64,000 nt of DNA from Mitsuokella jalaludinii DSM 13811 (GTDB lineage: Bacteria > Bacillota > Negativicutes > Selenomonadales > Selenomonadaceae): positions 1-64,000 of the forward strand of contig NZ_JNKR01000003.1 in assembly GCF_000702905.1 (NCBI RefSeq). Reading direction: 5' to 3'. The notes under the pieces are model-generated. The model did not search any database and was not told the origin of the DNA. It saw only the letters and a list, made by a program, of their open reading frames with translations. The stretch's first letter is position 1, and each line of letters opens with the position of its first letter. This document shows positions 798 through 48,960 of the stretch, piece after piece. Position numbers and translations under genes: made by a program.

Positions 798-1148
798 GTG
801 TATGCTTCGATATATTCGAATCAAATATTAAAAAAAACTGAAAGTAATAACGAACCTGTGCCAGAGATTCCAGGGAATAGACCGTATAAGGAATCCAGTG
901 CAGGTCTGAGCCCAAAAGCAAATGCTTCATGCTCTGCATGTGGACTATGTGCAGATACATGTCCTGCAGGAGTGATTGACAGGAAAAATCCCAAAATGAC
1001 AGATAAAAGTAAATGTATTTCATGTATGCGGTGCGTAGCTGTCTGTCCAAAGCATGCTCGGAAGGTAAGTGGCTTCATGACGGCAGTTGCGGGAATGGCA
1101 ATTAAAAAGGCTTGTTCATTCCGAAAAGAATGTGAATTGTTCTTATAA
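798..1148 (+). pseudogene. Ferredoxin half of an EFR1-type flavodoxin-ferredoxin protein
   Basis: A GTG-started frame of 116 residues carries two classical 4Fe-4S motifs, CSACGLCADTCP and CISCMRCVAVCP, followed by a C-terminal tail of the kind found in EFR1-family flavodoxin-ferredoxin fusions. The N-terminal flavodoxin domain of that family is missing, and the frame begins in what would be the inter-domain linker, only 5 nt after the phzF stop. I therefore read it as a second beheaded gene. A free-standing two-cluster ferredoxin is the alternative, but no ribosome binding site is visible before the GTG. It is AT-rich like its neighbour. Confidence 0.6.
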
Positions 1149-1284
1149 ATCGGGATTTAACAGACAGAATTCTGGACGTAAAGGAGCTGATTATATAGTA
1201 AAAATATAAAATTAACGACATAAAATACAAAGATGATTATATTAAAATATGTTATAATTATCTATAGAGGGAGGTGAGTTCCAT

Positions 1285-1578
1285 ATGTTTGCTAAAGATG
1301 TTCTTCGCATCTTGCAGGTTTCTAGGCCGCCGCTCACGAAGTATATCAAGACAGGATTATCCGTGTCCATGTCATGCCAAACGGCCATTACGACTACAAC
1401 GAGGAAGATGTCTACAAGTTCCTCAAAAAAGATGTGAAGCGCAAAATCAAGAAGTTTCGAGGATATCGTGAGCCTGTTGCATTGCTACTCTATGAAGCTG
1501 TATTCCAATCGCAATAGGCTGCAGAAGATCAAGGAGGCGATAGAGGATGATGAAACGAGTGGAACACCATCGGCTTAA
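1285..1578 (+). pseudogene. tnpA: IS607-type serine recombinase TnpA remnant (core deleted, frameshifted)
   Basis: An ATG at 1285 behind GGGAGGTGAG begins MFAKDVLRILQVSRPPLTKY, the MerR-like N-terminal helix-turn-helix of IS607 TnpA. A 1-base deletion near 1355 shifts the frame; the continuation RVHVMPNGHYDYNEEDVYKF (from about 1362) and KRK follow in frame 3. After about 1437 the frame returns to the original one and reads EDIVSLLHCYSMKLYSNRNR and onward to a TAA at 1576-1578, which is the family C-terminus. The catalytic serine-recombinase core, about 130 residues in the family, is missing. The remnant overlaps the tnpB start by 32 nt, as in intact IS607 elements. It cannot encode an active transposase. 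Confidence 0.75.
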
Positions 1579-2803
1579 ACCCTCGTCACCGTTCTACGCC
1601 ATGCTGCGCGAATTCTGCCATCGTTCCAAGAACCTCTACAATCATGGGAACTTCCTGATCCGTCAGGCGTTCATCAAGGATAGCAAATGGCTGCGCTATG
1701 GCGAAGTCGACCGTTTGCTGAAGGGGGACGCAGACTACCCCGACTATCGGGAGATGCCGACTGCGCAGACGGCGCAGCAGACACTCCGCATTTTAGATAA
1801 GAACTGGACATCGTTCTTCGCGGCCCTCAAGGACTGGAAGGCCCATCCCGAGAAGTACAAGGGACGGCCAAAACTGCCGAAGTACAAGCCGAAGGACGGC
1901 TATTTCCCGCTGGTGCTGACGAACCAGAACTGCAAGCTCAAGGACGGAATCATCCGTTTTCCCAAGACCTTCCAAGGGTTCACGGTAAAGGCCATCTTTG
2001 TCAGTCAGCCTGATGCTGTCTTCAAACAGGCACGCATCATCCCGCATGGCGGGGAAATCGATCTGGAACTCGTCTATGAGATTCCAGAGGTCGAGGAGAA
2101 AGAGAACAATGGAAGATACGCCGCCATCGACATCGGCGTCGACAATCTCGCGGCACTGGCCTGGAACACAGGCGAGCGACCTGTCCTGCTCAAGGGGACG
2201 CCGCTCAAGTCAGTCAACCAGTACTACAACAAGCAGATGGCCAAGCGCAGGAGCATCTGTGAGCGGATGAATGGCGTCCATTCATCGAAGCGAATCGCGC
2301 GGCTCACAGCGAAGCGTAATCGCAAGGTCGAGGATTACCTGCACAAAGCGAGTCGCAAGGTCATCGACTTGTGCGCGGGGCAGGACGTGTCGGTACTGGT
2401 CATCGGCAAGAATAAGGGCTGGAAACAGGAAGCGAATCTTGGGCGCAAAGTCAACCAGAGCTTTGTGCAGCTGCCTTTCGCCCGCTTCATCCAGATGCTG
2501 CAGTACAAGGCCGAGTCAATCGGCATGAAGGTCGTGCTGACTGAGGAGAGCTATACGAGTGGCACTTCCTTCTTGGATGACGAGGCACCGATCAAAGCCT
2601 GCTATGACAAATCACGCCGGGTTCATCGCGGCCTGTTCTTGGCAAACGATGGCCAACGCATCAATGCCGATGTCAATGGTGCTTACCAGATCATGCGAAA
2701 AGTATTCCCGAATGTGAACGCAGACGGGATAGAGGGCGTAGCGTTGCGCCCAGCTGTAGTAACTCTTTCGATGAGCGCTCGCCGCGGCTCCGGCTGTGCC
2801 TGA
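1547..2803 (+). CDS. tnpB: TnpB-type RNA-guided endonuclease (IS607-associated)
   Basis: The 418-residue product has the full TnpB layout: an N-terminal helical/OB region (1-185) and a RuvC-like nuclease with motif I YAAIDIGVDNL (Asp195) and motif III INADVNGAY (Asp375). At the usual motif II position the sequence is SVLVIGKNKGWK (282-293), without the expected Glu; a conserved-looking Glu pair sits at 333-334 in VVLTEESYTSGTSF. The canonical CxxC zinc ribbon is absent. TnpB nucleases cut DNA guided by an omega RNA made from the element's right end, and they help the element persist. AAGGAGG at 1530-1536 precedes the start. The frame is intact although the partner tnpA is dead. Confidence 0.85.
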   Translation: MMKRVEHHRLKPSSPFYAMLREFCHRSKNLYNHGNFLIRQAFIKDSKWLRYGEVDRLLKGDADYPDYREMPTAQTAQQTLRILDKNWTSFFAALKDWKAHPEKYKGRPKLPKYKPKDGYFPLVLTNQNCKLKDGIIRFPKTFQGFTVKAIFVSQPDAVFKQARIIPHGGEIDLELVYEIPEVEEKENNGRYAAIDIGVDNLAALAWNTGERPVLLKGTPLKSVNQYYNKQMAKRRSICERMNGVHSSKRIARLTAKRNRKVEDYLHKASRKVIDLCAGQDVSVLVIGKNKGWKQEANLGRKVNQSFVQLPFARFIQMLQYKAESIGMKVVLTEESYTSGTSFLDDEAPIKACYDKSRRVHRGLFLANDGQRINADVNGAYQIMRKVFPNVNADGIEGVALRPAVVTLSMSARRGSGCA

Positions 2804-2876
2804 TGTGAGAAAGAGTGAACAGCGAAATTTATTAAAAATACGAATATCATTATTTGGTATTTATAATAAATATAAC
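2804..2876 (+). other. AT-rich right end of the IS607-type element, candidate omega-RNA region
   Basis: This 73-nt AT-rich stretch joins the tnpB stop to NRAMP coding sequence. In related elements the guide (omega/reRNA) scaffold overlaps the 3' end of tnpB and ends at the element boundary, so the guide here would be the first bases of NRAMP sequence. This is inferred from position only; no conserved scaffold was recognised. Confidence 0.35.
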
Positions 2877-3320
2877 GTCGGCCAGCTGATCAAGATGTAC
2901 GCATTCGCCATCGGCGACTGGTCCAAACTGCTCATTGCCGTGATCGCGTTCCTCTGCATGTTCGGCACGACGCTCACCGTTATCGATGGGTATTCCCGTG
3001 CCAATAATGAGGCGCTGCGCCTCCTGATGAAAAAGGATCAGAGCTCGGCTCGCAACCTCAATATCTGGATGACGGTCACGTCCCTTGTCGGCATTGTCAT
3101 CATTGCCGGATTCATGAGCGATGTGGCAACGCTTCTCTACTTCGCGATGATCTGCTCCTTTGTTTCGACGCCGTTCTTTGCGCTGTTGAACTTCTCCCTC
3201 GTGCGGAGCGGAGCGCATAAAGTCACGGGCGGCCTGTTCTGGCTCGGTGTCTTCGGCTTCCTGTATCTTGCAGGCTTTACCATTCTCTTCATTGTCTACG
3301 AGGCAGGACTGCTCAAATAA
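2877..3320 (+). pseudogene. NRAMP divalent-metal transporter, C-terminal fragment
   Basis: Homology starts near VGQLIKMYAFAIGDWSK and continues through CMFGTTLTVIDGYSR and four hydrophobic helices to the stop at 3318-3320. This corresponds to the last helices of an NRAMP (Mn2+/Fe2+) transporter, whose full length is about 400-440 residues. An open frame extends back to 2796, but its first ~27 codons are insertion-sequence DNA. The metal-binding helices 1 and 6 (DPGN and MPH motifs in the family) are absent, so the fragment is very unlikely to transport. A terminator follows directly. Confidence 0.75.
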
Positions 3321-43238: not shown

Positions 43239-45299
43239 ATGAAATCTTACAAGAGTTCCAACCTGCGCAACGTTGCCGTCATCGGCCATGGCAAGACGGG
43301 CAAGACGAGCCTGCTCGATGCCTGCCTGTTCAATGCGGGTGCTGTCAAGCGCCTCGGCAGTGTGGAAGAGCACACGAGTGTGCTCGACTGCGAGCCGGAG
43401 GAAGAGAGCCGCGGCATGACGATCAACCTGAAGCTTGCCGCCTGCGAATGGCGTGACTATAAGATCAATTTCATCGATACGCCGGGCTATCCGGACTTCG
43501 TCGGCGAAGTCAAGGGCGCGCTGACGGCAGCGGACAGTGCCCTCATCGTGATCTCGGCCCCGTCTGGCATCGAGGTCGAGACGGAGAAGGCATGGCGCTA
43601 TGCCGAGGAAGCGGAGCTGCCGCGCGCGTTCTTCATCAACAAGATGGACCGCGAGCACGCCGACTTCCAGCAAGTCGTCGAAGAGCTGCGCGTGCGCTTT
43701 GGCGCGGGTGTCGTGCCCGTGCAGTTGCCGATTGGCCAGGAAGCGGCCTTCCAGGGTGTCGTCGACCTCTTGGCCCTGCACATGAAGATCGTCACGCATG
43801 ACGAGGAAGACCTCATCGCCGACATCCCGGAATACATCCAGGGCGACGTCGAGGAGGCGCGCCAGAAGCTCATCGAGTCTGTCGCGGAGTTCAACAACGA
43901 ATTGCTCGAGAAGTACATCGAAGGTACGGAGATCACGGAGGTCGAAGTGGCGGCCGCTCTGATTGAGGGCATCCAGGCCGGCAAGATCTTCCCGGTCTTC
44001 TGCGGCTCGGCGAAGCAGAATATCGGCGTCAAGAAGCTCATGAACGGCATCGTCGAGTACCTGCCGACGCCGTACTTCCACGTCGCCATCGGCATGGATC
44101 CGCAGGACGGGGACCTCAAGGAGCGTCATACGGAGGATGCGTTCTCGGCACAGGTATTCAAGACGGTTGTCGACCCGTTCGTCGGCCGCATGAGTTACCT
44201 GCGCATCTTCTCTGGCACGATGAAGGGCGATGCCACTTACATGCATCCCAACAAGGAGAATGCGGAGCGCGTCGGTACGATCTTCTCCTTGCAGGGCAAG
44301 CGCCAGGAGCATCTGAATGCTGCGGAGGCCGGCGATATCGTCGCGACGACGAAGCTGCAGTCGGTCAGGACGGGCGATACGCTCTGCGATAGCGCCGACC
44401 CCATCGTCTACGAGGAGATCGCCTACCCGGCCCCGATGCTCGCGATGGCAGCTTCCGCCCACAAGAAGGGCGAGGAGGACAAGGTTTTCGGCGCGCTTGC
44501 CAAGCAGCAGGATGAAGACCCGACCATCGTCGTGGAGAAGAATCCGGAGACGCATGAGACAATCCTGCGCGGCATCGGCGAGGTTCACCTCGAGGTCCTG
44601 CGCGACAAGCTTCAGCGCAAGTTCGGCGTCGAGCTCGAACTGCATGAGCCGCGCGTCGCATACCGCGAGACAATCCGCAAGAGCGTCAAGGTGCAGGGCA
44701 AGCACAAGAAGCAGAGCGGCGGCCACGGCCAGTACGGCGATGTCTGGCTGGAGATCAGCCCGCAGGAGGCCGGCGCCGGCAATGCATTCACCGAGACAAT
44801 CTTCGGTGGCAGTGTGCCGCGCCAGTACATCCCGGCCGTTGAGAAGGGCACGGCCGAGACGCTCTCTGGCGGCGTGCTGGCGGGCTACCCTGTCGTCGAT
44901 GTCAAGGTCAACCTCTACGACGGCTCGTACCACACGGTCGACTCCTCGGAGGCAGCCTTCAAGACAGCGACGGCCCTCGCCATCCGCAAGGGCGTCATGG
45001 AGGCGAGCCCTATCCTGCTCGAGCCAATCGATGACATCCGCATCACCGCGCCGGAGTATTACATGGGCGATGTCATGGGACGCCTGAATTCCAAACGTGC
45101 GCGCATCCTCGGCATCGAGGGCAAGGGCAAGGACATGAGCGAGATCCATGCCGAGATCCCTGAGTCGCAGCTCTACCGTTTCGCGACGGAGCTTCGCTCC
45201 CTGACCCAGGGCCGCGGTAGCTACACGCTCGCCTTCGCCCGCTACGAGCCAGTCCCCGAGAAAAACGCAGAGGAGATCATCCGCGCCGCAAAGGACTGA
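43239..45299 (+). CDS. Elongation factor G paralogue (EF-G-like GTPase)
   Basis: The 686-residue product has all five EF-G domains: G1 GHGKTGKTS (16-24), G2 ESRGMTI, G3 DTPGYPDF, G4 NKMD, and domain IV KSVKVQGKHKKQSGGHGQYG. The P-loop lacks the DAGKT form of canonical FusA, and the protein lines up better with the EF-G-II/EF-G-like subfamily that many Firmicutes carry beside FusA. Its role (back-up translocation, recycling or stress) is unknown. AGGAGGG lies 6 nt before ATG 43239. It is immediately upstream of the histidine kinase operon but separated by a terminator. Confidence 0.9.
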   Translation: MKSYKSSNLRNVAVIGHGKTGKTSLLDACLFNAGAVKRLGSVEEHTSVLDCEPEEESRGMTINLKLAACEWRDYKINFIDTPGYPDFVGEVKGALTAADSALIVISAPSGIEVETEKAWRYAEEAELPRAFFINKMDREHADFQQVVEELRVRFGAGVVPVQLPIGQEAAFQGVVDLLALHMKIVTHDEEDLIADIPEYIQGDVEEARQKLIESVAEFNNELLEKYIEGTEITEVEVAAALIEGIQAGKIFPVFCGSAKQNIGVKKLMNGIVEYLPTPYFHVAIGMDPQDGDLKERHTEDAFSAQVFKTVVDPFVGRMSYLRIFSGTMKGDATYMHPNKENAERVGTIFSLQGKRQEHLNAAEAGDIVATTKLQSVRTGDTLCDSADPIVYEEIAYPAPMLAMAASAHKKGEEDKVFGALAKQQDEDPTIVVEKNPETHETILRGIGEVHLEVLRDKLQRKFGVELELHEPRVAYRETIRKSVKVQGKHKKQSGGHGQYGDVWLEISPQEAGAGNAFTETIFGGSVPRQYIPAVEKGTAETLSGGVLAGYPVVDVKVNLYDGSYHTVDSSEAAFKTATALAIRKGVMEASPILLEPIDDIRITAPEYYMGDVMGRLNSKRARILGIEGKGKDMSEIHAEIPESQLYRFATELRSLTQGRGSYTLAFARYEPVPEKNAEEIIRAAKD

Positions 45300-45339: not shown

Positions 45340-45384
45340 AGCGCCCCGCTGACATGGGGAATCCATGCCAGTGGGGCGTTTCTA
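45340..45384 (+). terminator. Terminator between the EF-G paralogue and the histidine kinase gene
   Basis: GCGCCCCGCTGACATGG pairs with CCATGCCAGTGGGGCGT (one G-U, one mismatch) and is followed by TTTCT. TGTGGTAGAAT just upstream (45318-45328) resembles an extended -10, so the hairpin could alternatively attenuate a leader of the kinase gene. Confidence 0.7.
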
Positions 45385-45436
45385 TTGTAAGAATAAGTGA
45401 TATTCTGTATATCATATAGAGAAGGGATGTGTTGTA

Positions 45437-47278
45437 TTGGCCATTCGCATTCGCAGTTTGGACATCATCAAAGATATCATTCAGGCCTGGTGCCAGAGCA
45501 GGCTCTGGCAGCTCTGGACCATCGTGTCGGTCGCGCTCGTCACTATCGTTGCCTATGCGGCTAACGAGAATCAGGAAATCCCCTATGTGCAGTACGTCCT
45601 ACTCGTCGTGTTCTGGGCGTACCCTGTCGGGATGTTCCGGAGCATCCGCCGGCTGAGCTTTTCGGTGAAGATGACGGCGTTCCTGCTCGCTTTCCTACTC
45701 GCAGGGGCGACCTGGTACTTCTTCAGTTTCACGACGTTCTACAACGGCGCGAAGTTCTCGAAAGCAGAGGAGGGGCTCGTCCTCTACAACAGCGTACAGA
45801 GCATCCTCTCGATGGATGCGCCGCAGGCTGAGAAAGACAAGTGCATCGACGACCTGCTGCGCCATCAGATCTGGCAGCTCGGGGACGGCAAGATTGCGAG
45901 CCGCGTGGGCATCACCATCCTGAAGAACGGCAAGGCCTACAAGAGCTGCCCCATCACGGAGGACTACACGCGCTATTATCACGTCGAGCGCATCCCGTAC
46001 CTTGTGCGCTTCCGCGAGAAGTACCCGGGTGGCTACCCCGACGACGATGACAGCAAGTTTGTGCCGTTTGATGATTTCACAATCGGTTCCAACACATATT
46101 CCTTCTCGTACTCGTATGCGAACCGCCCGTATTGGAGCGATGGCTTCAGCCGGGCCATCCTCTTCTCCATCAACGACTGGAAGTCAGATACGAGCTTCAT
46201 CCGCAAGAAGAACTACCAGCGCTCGTACGACTTTGCCATCTACTTCTACTGCTTCTTCACCGCGCTGATCTTTCTGTTCTACTACGGCGAGAAGCAGAAT
46301 AAAGATAAGGCGGAGCTTGAACGACGGAGAAAGGAACTTGAACACAAAAATCAGGAGCTTAAGGAATCCAATAATAAATTGGAACGTTATAAGCTCGTCC
46401 ACAACCAACTGGAGAAGGGCATCATCAAGACGACGCGGTACGACCCGGCGCAGACACTCCAGAACATGGAATTCTCCTGGCGTGATTTTGTGGAGCAGGA
46501 GCTCCACAGCGGCGGCCACAGTCTGCGCAATGAAGTGACGGGCCGCAAGGCATCGCAGGAGGAGACGGTGGCTTTCGAGAACCACCTCTACGAGGCCTTC
46601 ATCCATCCGGCTGTCGAGCGCATCATCAAGCAGCTCTACGCGACGTCCGACATCATCACGACAGAGCCAGCGGTCTACGATACGGCAGAGCTGACGGAAT
46701 TGCTCATTGCGCACTTCCAGAAGGACTGCCTGTCCGATGACCTCTCGCGCGAGCGCCTGACGATCACCTATGCGCGCGAGAACCTCGCTGGCCATCATGT
46801 CAACCTCAATGCGTGCCGCATCGAGAGCATCCTCGACAACCTCTCGTACAACACGGGGCAGGAGCTCGACCGTGTTCTCGAAGCGCTCGATGACTGCGAT
46901 GACTTCGAGGGATATGATGCCTTCCACGCCGATGTGCAGCTGCAGTTCGCCGTGGTGTCGAAGGATGGGGCGGACTGGTACCGCATCCGCTATCGTGACA
47001 ATGTCGCGGGCTTCCCCGCCACCATCGTCAACAAGATCTACCATGAACCGGTGCCGAGCTCGAAGGAAGAGGGACGCAAGGGCGAGGGAACGATGTACAT
47101 CTCGCTGTTCGTCGACCTTCTCAATGGTCAGATAGAGGCCTACAACAGGGAATGGCCCGAGCGCCCGAGCGGCTCGGACCGCAAATATGCCGTGACCGAT
47201 ATCTACATCCCGCTCTGCCAGGCAGATGAAGCAGGACATGCAAGTCGTAAATCGTCTAAGACTTCTGCAGCAGTGTGA
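45437..47278 (+). CDS. Membrane sensor histidine kinase (divergent)
   Basis: The 613-residue protein has three N-terminal hydrophobic helices (about 26-42, 50-66, 78-98), an extracytoplasmic region of about 160 residues with no recognised family, a further helix (264-284), a charged coiled coil (286-330), and a cytoplasmic kinase region. H-box candidate His361 (GGHSLRNEV), N-box ILDNLSYNT (Asn468, Asn472), G1-like DNVAGFP (521-527) and G2-like GEGTMYISL (550-558) are all present but divergent. It should autophosphorylate and pass phosphate to the receiver protein encoded 14 nt downstream. The start is a TTG 10 nt after GAAGGG. Confidence 0.75.
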   Translation: MAIRIRSLDIIKDIIQAWCQSRLWQLWTIVSVALVTIVAYAANENQEIPYVQYVLLVVFWAYPVGMFRSIRRLSFSVKMTAFLLAFLLAGATWYFFSFTTFYNGAKFSKAEEGLVLYNSVQSILSMDAPQAEKDKCIDDLLRHQIWQLGDGKIASRVGITILKNGKAYKSCPITEDYTRYYHVERIPYLVRFREKYPGGYPDDDDSKFVPFDDFTIGSNTYSFSYSYANRPYWSDGFSRAILFSINDWKSDTSFIRKKNYQRSYDFAIYFYCFFTALIFLFYYGEKQNKDKAELERRRKELEHKNQELKESNNKLERYKLVHNQLEKGIIKTTRYDPAQTLQNMEFSWRDFVEQELHSGGHSLRNEVTGRKASQEETVAFENHLYEAFIHPAVERIIKQLYATSDIITTEPAVYDTAELTELLIAHFQKDCLSDDLSRERLTITYARENLAGHHVNLNACRIESILDNLSYNTGQELDRVLEALDDCDDFEGYDAFHADVQLQFAVVSKDGADWYRIRYRDNVAGFPATIVNKIYHEPVPSSKEEGRKGEGTMYISLFVDLLNGQIEAYNREWPERPSGSDRKYAVTDIYIPLCQADEAGHASRKSSKTSAAV

Positions 47279-47292
47279 TAAGGAGGAATTTT

Positions 47293-48282
47293 ATGCTGAT
47301 CATCATCGTAGACGATGAAAAGGAGCTCCACGAGAGCATGAAGCACATCATCGTAAAGAGATACCCCGAGGTGACCTTTGAGGATTACTACAGCCCGCGT
47401 GTCTTTTTAGACCGCCTGCGCAAGCGGCGCATCGCGCACACGGTTGGCGAGATTGCGCTGATCATCCTCGACAACCTATTCCAAGCAGGGCCGGGCGGCG
47501 AGACAGGCATCCAAGCACTGCCACGGATCCGCAAGCAGGCACCACAGACGCCCATCCTCTTCCTGACGGCGAATGACAATGCGGAGGAACTCGAGTCCAT
47601 CACGCAGTATGACATGGTCCATTACCAGCACAAGCCGATGGAAGAGACGCAGTTCTACTTCAAGCTCAAGGAAATCCTGCGGGAGCGGTCGAAGACGCAG
47701 CTACTCGGTGTCAAGGAAGAGGAGATTCGCAACCTGCGCCATTCGCTGCAGAGCGAGAAGGACGACGATGTCAAGGCGCAGAAACTCTACGAAGCCTATG
47801 CGCCGGCAACGGAGCAAGCTGTTGCTTCGGCCGATGTCCACGAAGATTTAACGACGCTGGAGCGCACGCTCAAGGCGGACTATGAGAATCTCGACGCCAA
47901 GGCTATCAAGTTTCTGGCATCGGCAGATGTCCTTTTTCGCCACATCACGGACAAGGAGATGGACTATTCGCCCGTGGCCATCGGCTACGCGAAGGGCGTG
48001 GAGTACATCATGCTGAAGCTCTTCCGTCACAAGGGCCTTGTCGACAAGCAGACGAAAGTTATGATGGGCGAGATGGTCACACATGTTTACCGCGACAAGA
48101 ACAGCTGGCCGCAGGGGTTCGTCAGGCTGATCTCTTCGGTCAAGGAAAAGCGCAACAGTGTGGCGCATACGAACGGCATCAGCCGCCAGGAGGTGGAATT
48201 CCTTCGCAAGCTGCTGTTTGAGACGCCATTAGGGGAGTATCGCAATCTGCTCGCCTACTTCTCGGAGGCGATGATCGCTTGA
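47293..48282 (+). CDS. Response regulator: receiver domain fused to a HEPN-like domain
   Basis: The 329-residue protein starts with a complete receiver domain: acidic pair Asp7-Asp8, phospho-acceptor Asp60 (LIILDN), Thr92 (LTAND) and Lys114 (HKP). After a charged helical linker (120-200) there is no helix-turn-helix. Instead a helical domain (about 200-329) contains DYSPVAIGYAKGVEYIMLKLF and then KRNSVAHT, i.e. R287-N288-x3-H292. RNxxxH in this helical setting is the hallmark of HEPN domains, many of which are ribonucleases of defence and stress systems. AAGGAGG lies 6-7 nt before ATG 47293. It is cotranscribed with the kinase. The HEPN call is motif-based, and a non-catalytic HEPN is possible. 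Confidence 0.7.
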   Translation: MLIIIVDDEKELHESMKHIIVKRYPEVTFEDYYSPRVFLDRLRKRRIAHTVGEIALIILDNLFQAGPGGETGIQALPRIRKQAPQTPILFLTANDNAEELESITQYDMVHYQHKPMEETQFYFKLKEILRERSKTQLLGVKEEEIRNLRHSLQSEKDDDVKAQKLYEAYAPATEQAVASADVHEDLTTLERTLKADYENLDAKAIKFLASADVLFRHITDKEMDYSPVAIGYAKGVEYIMLKLFRHKGLVDKQTKVMMGEMVTHVYRDKNSWPQGFVRLISSVKEKRNSVAHTNGISRQEVEFLRKLLFETPLGEYRNLLAYFSEAMIA

Positions 48283-48304
48283 GAGACTTGTCAAGCAAAA
48301 GTAC

Positions 48305-48388: not shown

Positions 48389-48580
48389 ATGGCAAATGTT
48401 TGCGAGTTTTGTGCAAAAGGCGAGCTGTCCGGCAACAACGTCAGCCACTCCCACCTGAAGACGAAACGTTCCTGGAAGCCGAACATCCAGCGTGTCCGCG
48501 CTGTTGTTGACGGTGAGGTCAAACGTGTCAACGTCTGCACGCGCTGCCTGCGTTCTGGCAAGGTCCAGCGTGCCCTTTGA
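48389..48580 (+). CDS. rpmB: 50S ribosomal protein L28
   Basis: The 63-residue protein is complete and matches bacterial L28: VSHSHLKTKRSWKPNIQ is the rRNA-binding core. It is the zinc-binding C+ form, with CEFC at the N-terminus and CTRC near the C-terminus. AAGGAGGTG lies just upstream. It has its own promoter and a 16-bp terminator, so it is a single-gene unit. Confidence 0.97.
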   Translation: MANVCEFCAKGELSGNNVSHSHLKTKRSWKPNIQRVRAVVDGEVKRVNVCTRCLRSGKVQRAL

Positions 48581-48610
48581 TTTGCGCATAATATCAAAGC
48601 TGATATATCA

Positions 48611-48653
48611 TAAATAGAGCAGATAAGAGAGAATCTTATCTGCTCTATTTATT
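48611..48653 (+). terminator. rpmB terminator
   Basis: AAATAGAGCAGATAAG and CTTATCTGCTCTATTT form a 16-bp perfect stem with a 7-nt loop and a T-rich tail. Confidence 0.9.
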
Positions 48654-48659
48654 TGCGTT

Positions 48660-48945
48660 CGAGAAGGCAAGGCGTCAAAAAGAGGGTATCTAACGCTTCA
48701 CACAGCAGGCTGAAGTTGCGCTTATAGATACCCTCTTTTTGACTTACGTTAGTGAGAGGCAAGGCAAGGCGAGGCGTCAAAAAACAGGTGTCCAACGCTC
48801 CGCGCGGCAGGCCGAAGCTTCGCTTATGGACACCTGTTTTTTGACTTATGTGAGTGCAAGGTGAGGCGCCGAAAGCCATTATCCAACGCTCCGCGCAGCA
48901 GGCTGAAGCTTCGCTTATGGATAATGGCTTTTGGCTTAGGGAATC
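48660..48945. repeat. Array of three long hairpins with a conserved loop and variable stems
   Basis: The 380-nt gap between the convergent genes rpmB and pepF holds three tandem hairpins. Arms: 48674-48692 with 48725-48743 (19 bp, perfect); 48776-48794 with 48827-48845 (19 bp, perfect); 48868-48885 with 48918-48935 (18 bp, one G-U). Each encloses a loop of exactly 32 nt that begins ACGCT and ends GCTTA and is nearly identical between copies 2 and 3. The inner parts of the stems differ completely between copies (GAGGGTATCTA, ACAGGTGTCCA, GCCATTATCCA) yet each pairs with its own second arm. Links of 32 and 22 nt share AGTG and AAGGC/GAGGC motifs. No gene is seen. Confidence 0.9.
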
Positions 48946-48960
48946 GCAGATGAGATGAGG

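Follow-up and report, generated by a model that had tools for sequence, protein, structure and literature searches.

A two-gene cassette in Mitsuokella jalaludinii encoding a putative membrane histidine kinase and a response regulator with a predicted HEPN-type output domain

Introduction

The targets of response regulators are mostly transcription, second messengers or protein partners, and in the Detocs system the effector carries a receiver domain. Detocs wires two-component signalling to a toxic effector in a three-gene system, and its best-described effector is an ATP-cleaving PNP enzyme (PMC11249213, cited here, like the other PMC-numbered papers, from an excerpt). In the Schlafen-kinase fusions an RNase domain is joined to two-component machinery in a defence setting, while PorX is a response regulator whose PglZ phosphodiesterase output cleaves cyclic and linear oligonucleotides (PMC12839542). 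The ANTAR response regulators have an RNA-level output as well (PMC3369931), namely RNA binding for antitermination by another domain, with no cleavage.

The window, a stretch of 64,000 nucleotides from M. jalaludinii DSM 13811 that was analysed as a whole, holds a gene pair for a putative membrane histidine kinase and a response regulator with a HEPN-like output domain (Table 1). Detocs, the Schlafen-kinase fusions and PorX are nearest to this pair in working principle, and the HEPN RNases are nearest by fold. Unlike Detocs, the pair combines a membrane kinase with a HEPN-type output; membership of Detocs was rejected, as only two genes lie between an EF-G paralogue and rpmB. In the Schlafen-kinase fusions, by contrast, the RNase is on the kinase and not on the receiver, and Schlafen is not HEPN (PMC12839542). 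PglZ differs in fold from the HEPN-type output, and the PorX model matched the window regulator at residues 54-207 only (5.3e-6, 25.5 bits vs a cut-off of 300). The HEPN RNases (HepT/MntA, RnlA/LsoA, Csm6, Swt1-like and RiboL-PSP-HEPN) share with the regulator the predicted fold, the R-N-x3-H motif at a helix end and a conserved acidic residue upstream of it, but the window output domain lies under every curated cut-off. A toxin-antitoxin system of the MNT-HEPN type was rejected, since no nucleotidyltransferase is a neighbour; the regulator gene is flanked by the kinase gene and rpmB, with the EF-G paralogue next.

No description of a receiver-HEPN regulator was found in searches of open-licence papers, a scope outside which two surveys of response-regulator output domains lie; this agrees with the original prediction, which knew of no such output class. 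The excerpt of the 2013 HEPN survey mentions a receiver only as replacing a HEPN domain, not as fused to one (PMC3710099). A receiver-HEPN fusion is likewise absent from the excerpts of papers on receivers, HEPN domains, RNase-kinase fusion or enzymatic outputs (PMC8195603, PMC7159879, PMC12839542, PMC5847659).

Table 1. Features of the cassette, with positions in the window; the cassette boundaries are good to a few bases.
Feature	Position	Strand	Basis
Two-gene cassette (kinase, regulator, about 59 bases upstream of the kinase)	45378..48287	+	blastn, DNA alignment with L064
Membrane histidine kinase (putative), 613 aa, TTG start	45437..47278	+	pattern and eye; sub-cut-off HATPase_c
Shine-Dalgarno AAGGAGG of the regulator gene	47280..47286	+	just 3' of the kinase stop codon
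Response regulator with HEPN-type output (predicted), 329 aa	47293..48282	+	ORF call, Pfam, AlphaFold2
Receiver domain, residues 1-125	47293..47667	+	Pfam PF00072, VIA-align
D60, predicted phospho-acceptor	47470..47472	+	identical in Veillonella homologue
Long helical linker, residues 118-179	47644..47829	+	predicted model; pLDDT <50 at 134-155
HEPN-type output domain as modelled, residues 183-329	47839..48279	+	AlphaFold2, VIA-align
D224-Y-S-P...K234-x2-E237 stretch	47962..48003	+	alignment of 13 modules
R287-N-S-V-A-H292, predicted HEPN active-site motif, helix end	48151..48168	+	sequence, model, alignment

Results and Discussion

The Regulator Joins a Receiver to a Predicted HEPN-Like Domain

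The regulator frame begins with an ATG, 14 bases beyond the kinase stop codon (47276-47278), and is closed by a stop codon at 48280-48282. Pfam Response_reg was found on residues 3-121 (E 1.1e-10, 42.1 bits vs a cut-off of 30.2), and the receiver was aligned with the PmrA receiver 7m0s by VIA-align with a Z of 16.6. The acidic pair D7/D8, D60, T92 and K114 are all present, and no DNA-binding family reached its Pfam cut-off in this protein. The original prediction of a complete receiver domain in a protein lacking a DNA-binding domain is thus borne out by Pfam, and the residue numbers that it gave (D7, D8, D60, T92, K114, R287, N288 and H292) are all correct by translation.

Since the VIA-align list of the full-length model was filled by receivers, the output domain was modelled alone; the full-length model, with a pTM of 0.49, was left unused for the domain arrangement. 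With the window sequence and, as the sole other row, the Veillonella sequence described below, AlphaFold2 predicted a helical bundle for residues 183-329 (mean pLDDT 87.3, pTM 0.85). R287, N288 and H292 are residues 105, 106 and 110 of the modelled domain, in which helix 94-110 ends at H110 (H292) and the next helix covers 116-127. This agrees with the position described for HEPN enzymes, whose motif lies at the end of helix 3 in a helical bundle (PMC3710099).

The best VIA-align match of the modelled domain was the HEPN protein 2hsb (rmsd 3.0, 116 residues aligned) with a Z of 12.7, a value within the range of unrelated helical bundles, which can reach Z 13. Among the best 50 rows, HEPN was named in the titles of 11 of the first 27. 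These 27 rows also included MntA-HepT, RnlA, LsoA and Csm6, which we take to be HEPN proteins, as well as two proteins titled uncharacterised at ranks 2 and 3, and the earliest row judged plainly different was DrrA at rank 28 (Z 8.3). Foldseek gave no match at an E-value of 0.001 or better for this model; its best match was an uncharacterised protein at 0.27, and HEPN proteins were mixed in its list with clamp-loader subunits and metavinculin. No significant match was obtained with sequence profiles against solved structures, where HepS, matched weakly (E 0.31), was aligned on its RNKYAH. Judged from the predicted structure, the output domain almost certainly has a HEPN-like fold, as had been proposed from the sequence.

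At the level of Pfam, the window module alone matched best DUF5824 (0.057) and then HEPN_Swt1 (0.087), both below threshold, and the Veillonella regulator matched HEPN_RiboL-PSP at E 0.002 (18.5 bits vs a gathering score of 28.4). Sub-threshold matches among nine modules were to HEPN_RiboL-PSP (best 0.00013, two modules), DUF4145 (0.0012, three modules), HEPN_Swt1 (0.021, three modules) and HEPN_Cthe2314 (0.043, one module), with comparable sub-threshold scores to families of unknown function in the same nine. DUF4145 is presumably a HEPN family. These sequence matches weakly support the HEPN reading of the domain. None of the curated Pfam HEPN models passed its cut-off on the window or Veillonella regulator, so the domain was assigned to the HEPN superfamily by fold and motif, and to no named Pfam family.

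The Motif Is Kept in Modules Behind Various N-Terminal Parts

The HEPN superfamily is marked by an Rx4-6H motif in which the R is followed immediately by a polar residue, in most cases N, D or H, and by a second conserved acidic residue, typically in Ex3[KR] (PMC3710099). R287-x4-H292 fits the former, while in the window protein K242 follows E237 with four residues between, compared to three in Ex3[KR]. Thirteen modules were aligned, these being the distinct ones left after the removal of L046 (see below) and of repeats: L032 and L033 duplicate the window and L004, L039 and L048 both stand for one Veillonella place, and L067-L070 duplicate earlier places (L numbers denote loci). R and H stood at the aligned position in all 13 modules, a count that is partly circular as most modules were found with a profile that spans the motif (roughly positions 146-151 of 186). 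The position of N288 held N in 12 of 13 and K in L043, where the module frame has 115 aa and is perhaps broken; D224 and E237 were found in every module and K234 in 12. Three profile matches ended well short of the motif, namely L036 (41-101), L045 (55-109) and L046 (44-113), and L036 and L045 carry RN-x2-AH downstream. L046, which has no motif and looked by eye like an unrelated sigma-factor-like ORF, was rejected as a module carrier and dropped from the counts. In the family search with the regulator, the window, L003 and L004 were kept, and the other matched ranges were receiver or linker only, most of the excluded ORFs being judged by the matched range alone.

The conservation of R287 and H292, on which the HEPN assignment had been made to depend, therefore holds in the sole other receiver-HEPN protein found and across the 13 modules, with the circularity described above. 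A chance occurrence of the RNxxxH motif was rejected on the same alignment, subject to the same partial circularity.

By eye, the module lies behind a receiver in the window and in Veillonella, behind glycine-rich membrane segments and a coiled coil in L003, L034, L036 and L040, behind a zinc-ribbon-like part and a membrane segment in L004, behind a membrane segment and a coiled coil in L035, behind TPR-like repeats in L041, and behind other sequences in L042-L045. L041 is visible for the last 662 of its 863 codons, and a receiver further upstream is possible there. This reuse behind several N-terminal parts suggests that more such systems await recognition. The proteins of L003, L034, L036 and L040 resemble the window regulator in the same C-terminal HEPN-type module but differ in that no receiver is seen, and they match the PADLOC candidate PDC-M09A in the N-terminal part, outside the module. 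They are encoded at 1498-3315, 283-2052, 1060-3099 and 1489-3231 of their loci, respectively, with lengths of 580-679 aa. A dynamin-like GTPase ORF, recognised by eye, lies downstream of the module protein in L034, and in L042 a coiled-coil module protein (frame starting at 1276) lies between ORFs that by eye resemble a type I restriction-modification locus.

The sharing of one module by so many membrane, coiled-coil or repeat proteins is adaptor-like, not every HEPN domain is a nuclease, and the HEPN domain could be non-catalytic, with the phosphorylated regulator binding RNA or a partner protein and so regulating expression or another process. A role of this kind is assumed for the HEPN domains of MtlR type and for those associated with NTases, and MtlR structures were among the weaker fold matches of the output domain (Z 6.5 and 6.3). 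Some HEPN families do lack the active-site motif, but those families have lost or altered Rx4-6H (PMC3710099), whereas here every one of the 13 modules has R and H and 12 of them have N, so that a pure binding role appears improbable to us; catalysis by the HEPN domain is the preferred reading.

A Second Kinase-Regulator Pair Is Found in Veillonella

The window kinase has hydrophobic segments near residues 23-41, 73-91 and 263-281 and also a coiled coil; the hydrophobicity scan is rough, and the segment at 263-281 was uncalled in the Veillonella kinase. Its signatures are H361 in HSLRN, an N-box, D521-N-V-A-G-F and G549-E-G.

A second pair of kinase and receiver-HEPN regulator, in the same order, is present in Veillonella sp. 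3891 (genome G357, locus L048, NZ_RQVE01000011.1), where the two ORFs overlap by four bases. The two kinases align over 578 positions with 24% identity (E 4e-35), the N-terminal membrane/sensor region included, and the regulators have 25% identity (E 1e-28). D7, D8, D60, T92, K114, R287, N288 and H292 are all identical in the Veillonella regulator, whose receiver reached 44.4 bits in Pfam (cut-off 30.2). The H, N, G1 and G2 boxes were recognised by pattern and eye in both kinases, and HATPase_c matched below its cut-off of 26.4 bits, weakly in the window kinase (E 0.0074, 17.2 bits) and just under the cut-off in that of Veillonella (E 2.3e-5, 25.2 bits). The regulator had been predicted to be paired with a membrane histidine kinase, and its place beside this putative kinase is conserved in Veillonella as well.

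The sub-cut-off HATPase matches and the G1 box of the window kinase, D-N-V-A-G-F rather than DxGxG, would also fit a degenerate pair in which the kinase or the regulator is inactive and the genes are drifting. This is very improbable, given that both frames are intact, that the ribosome site is strong and that members of two bacterial families, with 24-25% identity between them, have both retained the signature residues.

The Veillonella receiver gave a weak PADLOC match to PDC-M60B (0.00065), which was put down to the receiver fold. Upstream of the Veillonella pair, at L047 8548-11147, there are two DprA-like genes with a small ORF between them. Their distances from the kinase are about 0.4 and 2 kb. 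They match DNA_processg_A (7.9e-36 and 6.1e-40) and PADLOC ShosA (7.6e-48 and 1.9e-51), and they may be ordinary competence genes.

A Phosphorylation-Controlled RNase Is the Favoured Mechanism

Computation gives a receiver, a predicted fold of HEPN type, conserved residues and a conserved gene pair with a sporadic, inserted distribution; kinase activity, phosphotransfer, RNA cleavage, the direction of control, the signal and the purpose are what we infer. It is somewhat probable that the pair consists of a membrane kinase and a phosphorylation-controlled HEPN-type RNase. As a rule, HEPN RNases are active as dimers in which two RxxxxH motifs are paired, and phosphorylation commonly makes receivers dimerise. 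Taken together, these two properties make phosphorylation-driven pairing of the HEPN domains through the linker the simplest mechanism. A signal at or outside the membrane would lead to autophosphorylation of the kinase, probably on H361, and the phosphoryl group would pass to D60 of the receiver. The change, relayed through the helical linker, would bring two HEPN domains into, or out of, a paired arrangement, in which the R287/H292 motifs would form a metal-independent RNase site. Cleavage of RNA could then slow or stop the cell in a stress or anti-phage response. The sign may also be the opposite one, with phosphorylation as the off switch.

If this reading is true, an RNA-cutting regulator joins phosphorelay signalling to HEPN toxins and defence nucleases, and surveys of two-component systems gain a new output class. 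It would also be an externally gated RNase whose state could be set by mutations at D60, R287 and H292. We tentatively put forward that this could be the first two-component system with direct RNA cleavage as output, in which an envelope sensor switches on a HEPN RNase via aspartate phosphorylation. It would be a minimal, self-contained two-gene cassette and part of a modular family of signal-gated RNases, the gating parts being the receiver, glycine-rich membrane segments, a zinc ribbon and TPR-like repeats.

The Pair Is a Sporadic Insert

In the nearest sister genome (G040), the EF-G paralogue, 96% identical to that of the window, is followed directly by rpmB. The cassette of about 2.9 kb is missing from this junction, and the kinase-regulator pair was not found elsewhere in the G040 genome. 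This difference may have arisen by gain of the cassette in this genome or by its loss from G040. In genomes G041 and G001 only the EF-G end of the corresponding region was aligned, so that their junctions are uninformative. The insert contains the two genes and about 59 bases, and nothing else. The two genes of the pair have GC3 values of 0.78 and 0.77; two neighbouring genes have 0.84 and 0.83, and another has 0.78. Base composition says little about the origin of the cassette.

The module search in the class gave matches in 8 of 380 genomes, of which two were receiver fusions, and the same two genomes were the only ones of 379 to match the kinase alignment at E 1e-6 or better. The other 188 of the 189 family genomes had neither the kinase nor a full-length regulator; the order-level search covered 189 genomes, the same as the family set. 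In a sample of the phylum the module was matched in 8 of 398 genomes, where the window was the sole visible receiver fusion, the start of L041 being out of view. In two further classes, of 113 and 10 genomes, the only matches were in G601 and G585, both already known. The contig scans relied on few short peptide patterns. With the window protein no relatives were found, an absence that is weak for this reason, and with the two-sequence alignment six loci were found, namely Veillonella and five receiver-only loci (L049-L053). These five hold receiver proteins with kinase-type ends, in which no R[NDH]x3H is present.

Among plasmids, the window regulator matched one record, in the receiver part only, in an NtrC-type-looking ORF, and neither the kinase nor the output domain had a match. 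The Veillonella regulator matched 153 plasmid records, none covering 80% of the query, and the best 20 of the 153 covered at most 63%. The output domain had no match in phages, nor did the module or kinase alignment match any of the viral contigs. Over all searches, only two receiver-HEPN pairs were found.

The sporadic, inserted occurrence, the ShosA-matching DprA-like genes in Veillonella and the PDC-M09A matches of four module carriers suggest defence or dormancy as the purpose of the pair. This is weakened by the ordinary neighbours and by PADLOC, in which no match of the window pair was better than E 0.71, and we regard such a purpose as quite possible. The same two observations would suit an envelope-stress two-component system in which RNA is cleaved (or bound) for physiological regulation rather than for defence or dormancy; it overlaps the favoured explanation in mechanism and differs in purpose. 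The conservation of the membrane sensor region in two hosts that are distant from each other also speaks for it, but occurrence in 2 of 380 class genomes and absence from the nearest sister genome fit an accessory system and not a housekeeping one, and we consider this purpose unlikely.

The pair had been placed between an EF-G paralogue and rpmB, and it lies there as stated, the former recognised by its Pfam EF-G domains (43239-45299) and the latter by eye (48389-48580). The EF-G paralogue is 40-41% identical to a second EF-G-like protein in four related genomes. On the 3' side of rpmB, at 48610-48960, there are several copies of a stem-loop-like repeat with arms such as AAAAAGAGGGTATC ... 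GATACCCTCTTTTT and GGCAAGGCGTC-like borders, and the sister genome has similar repeats in this position.
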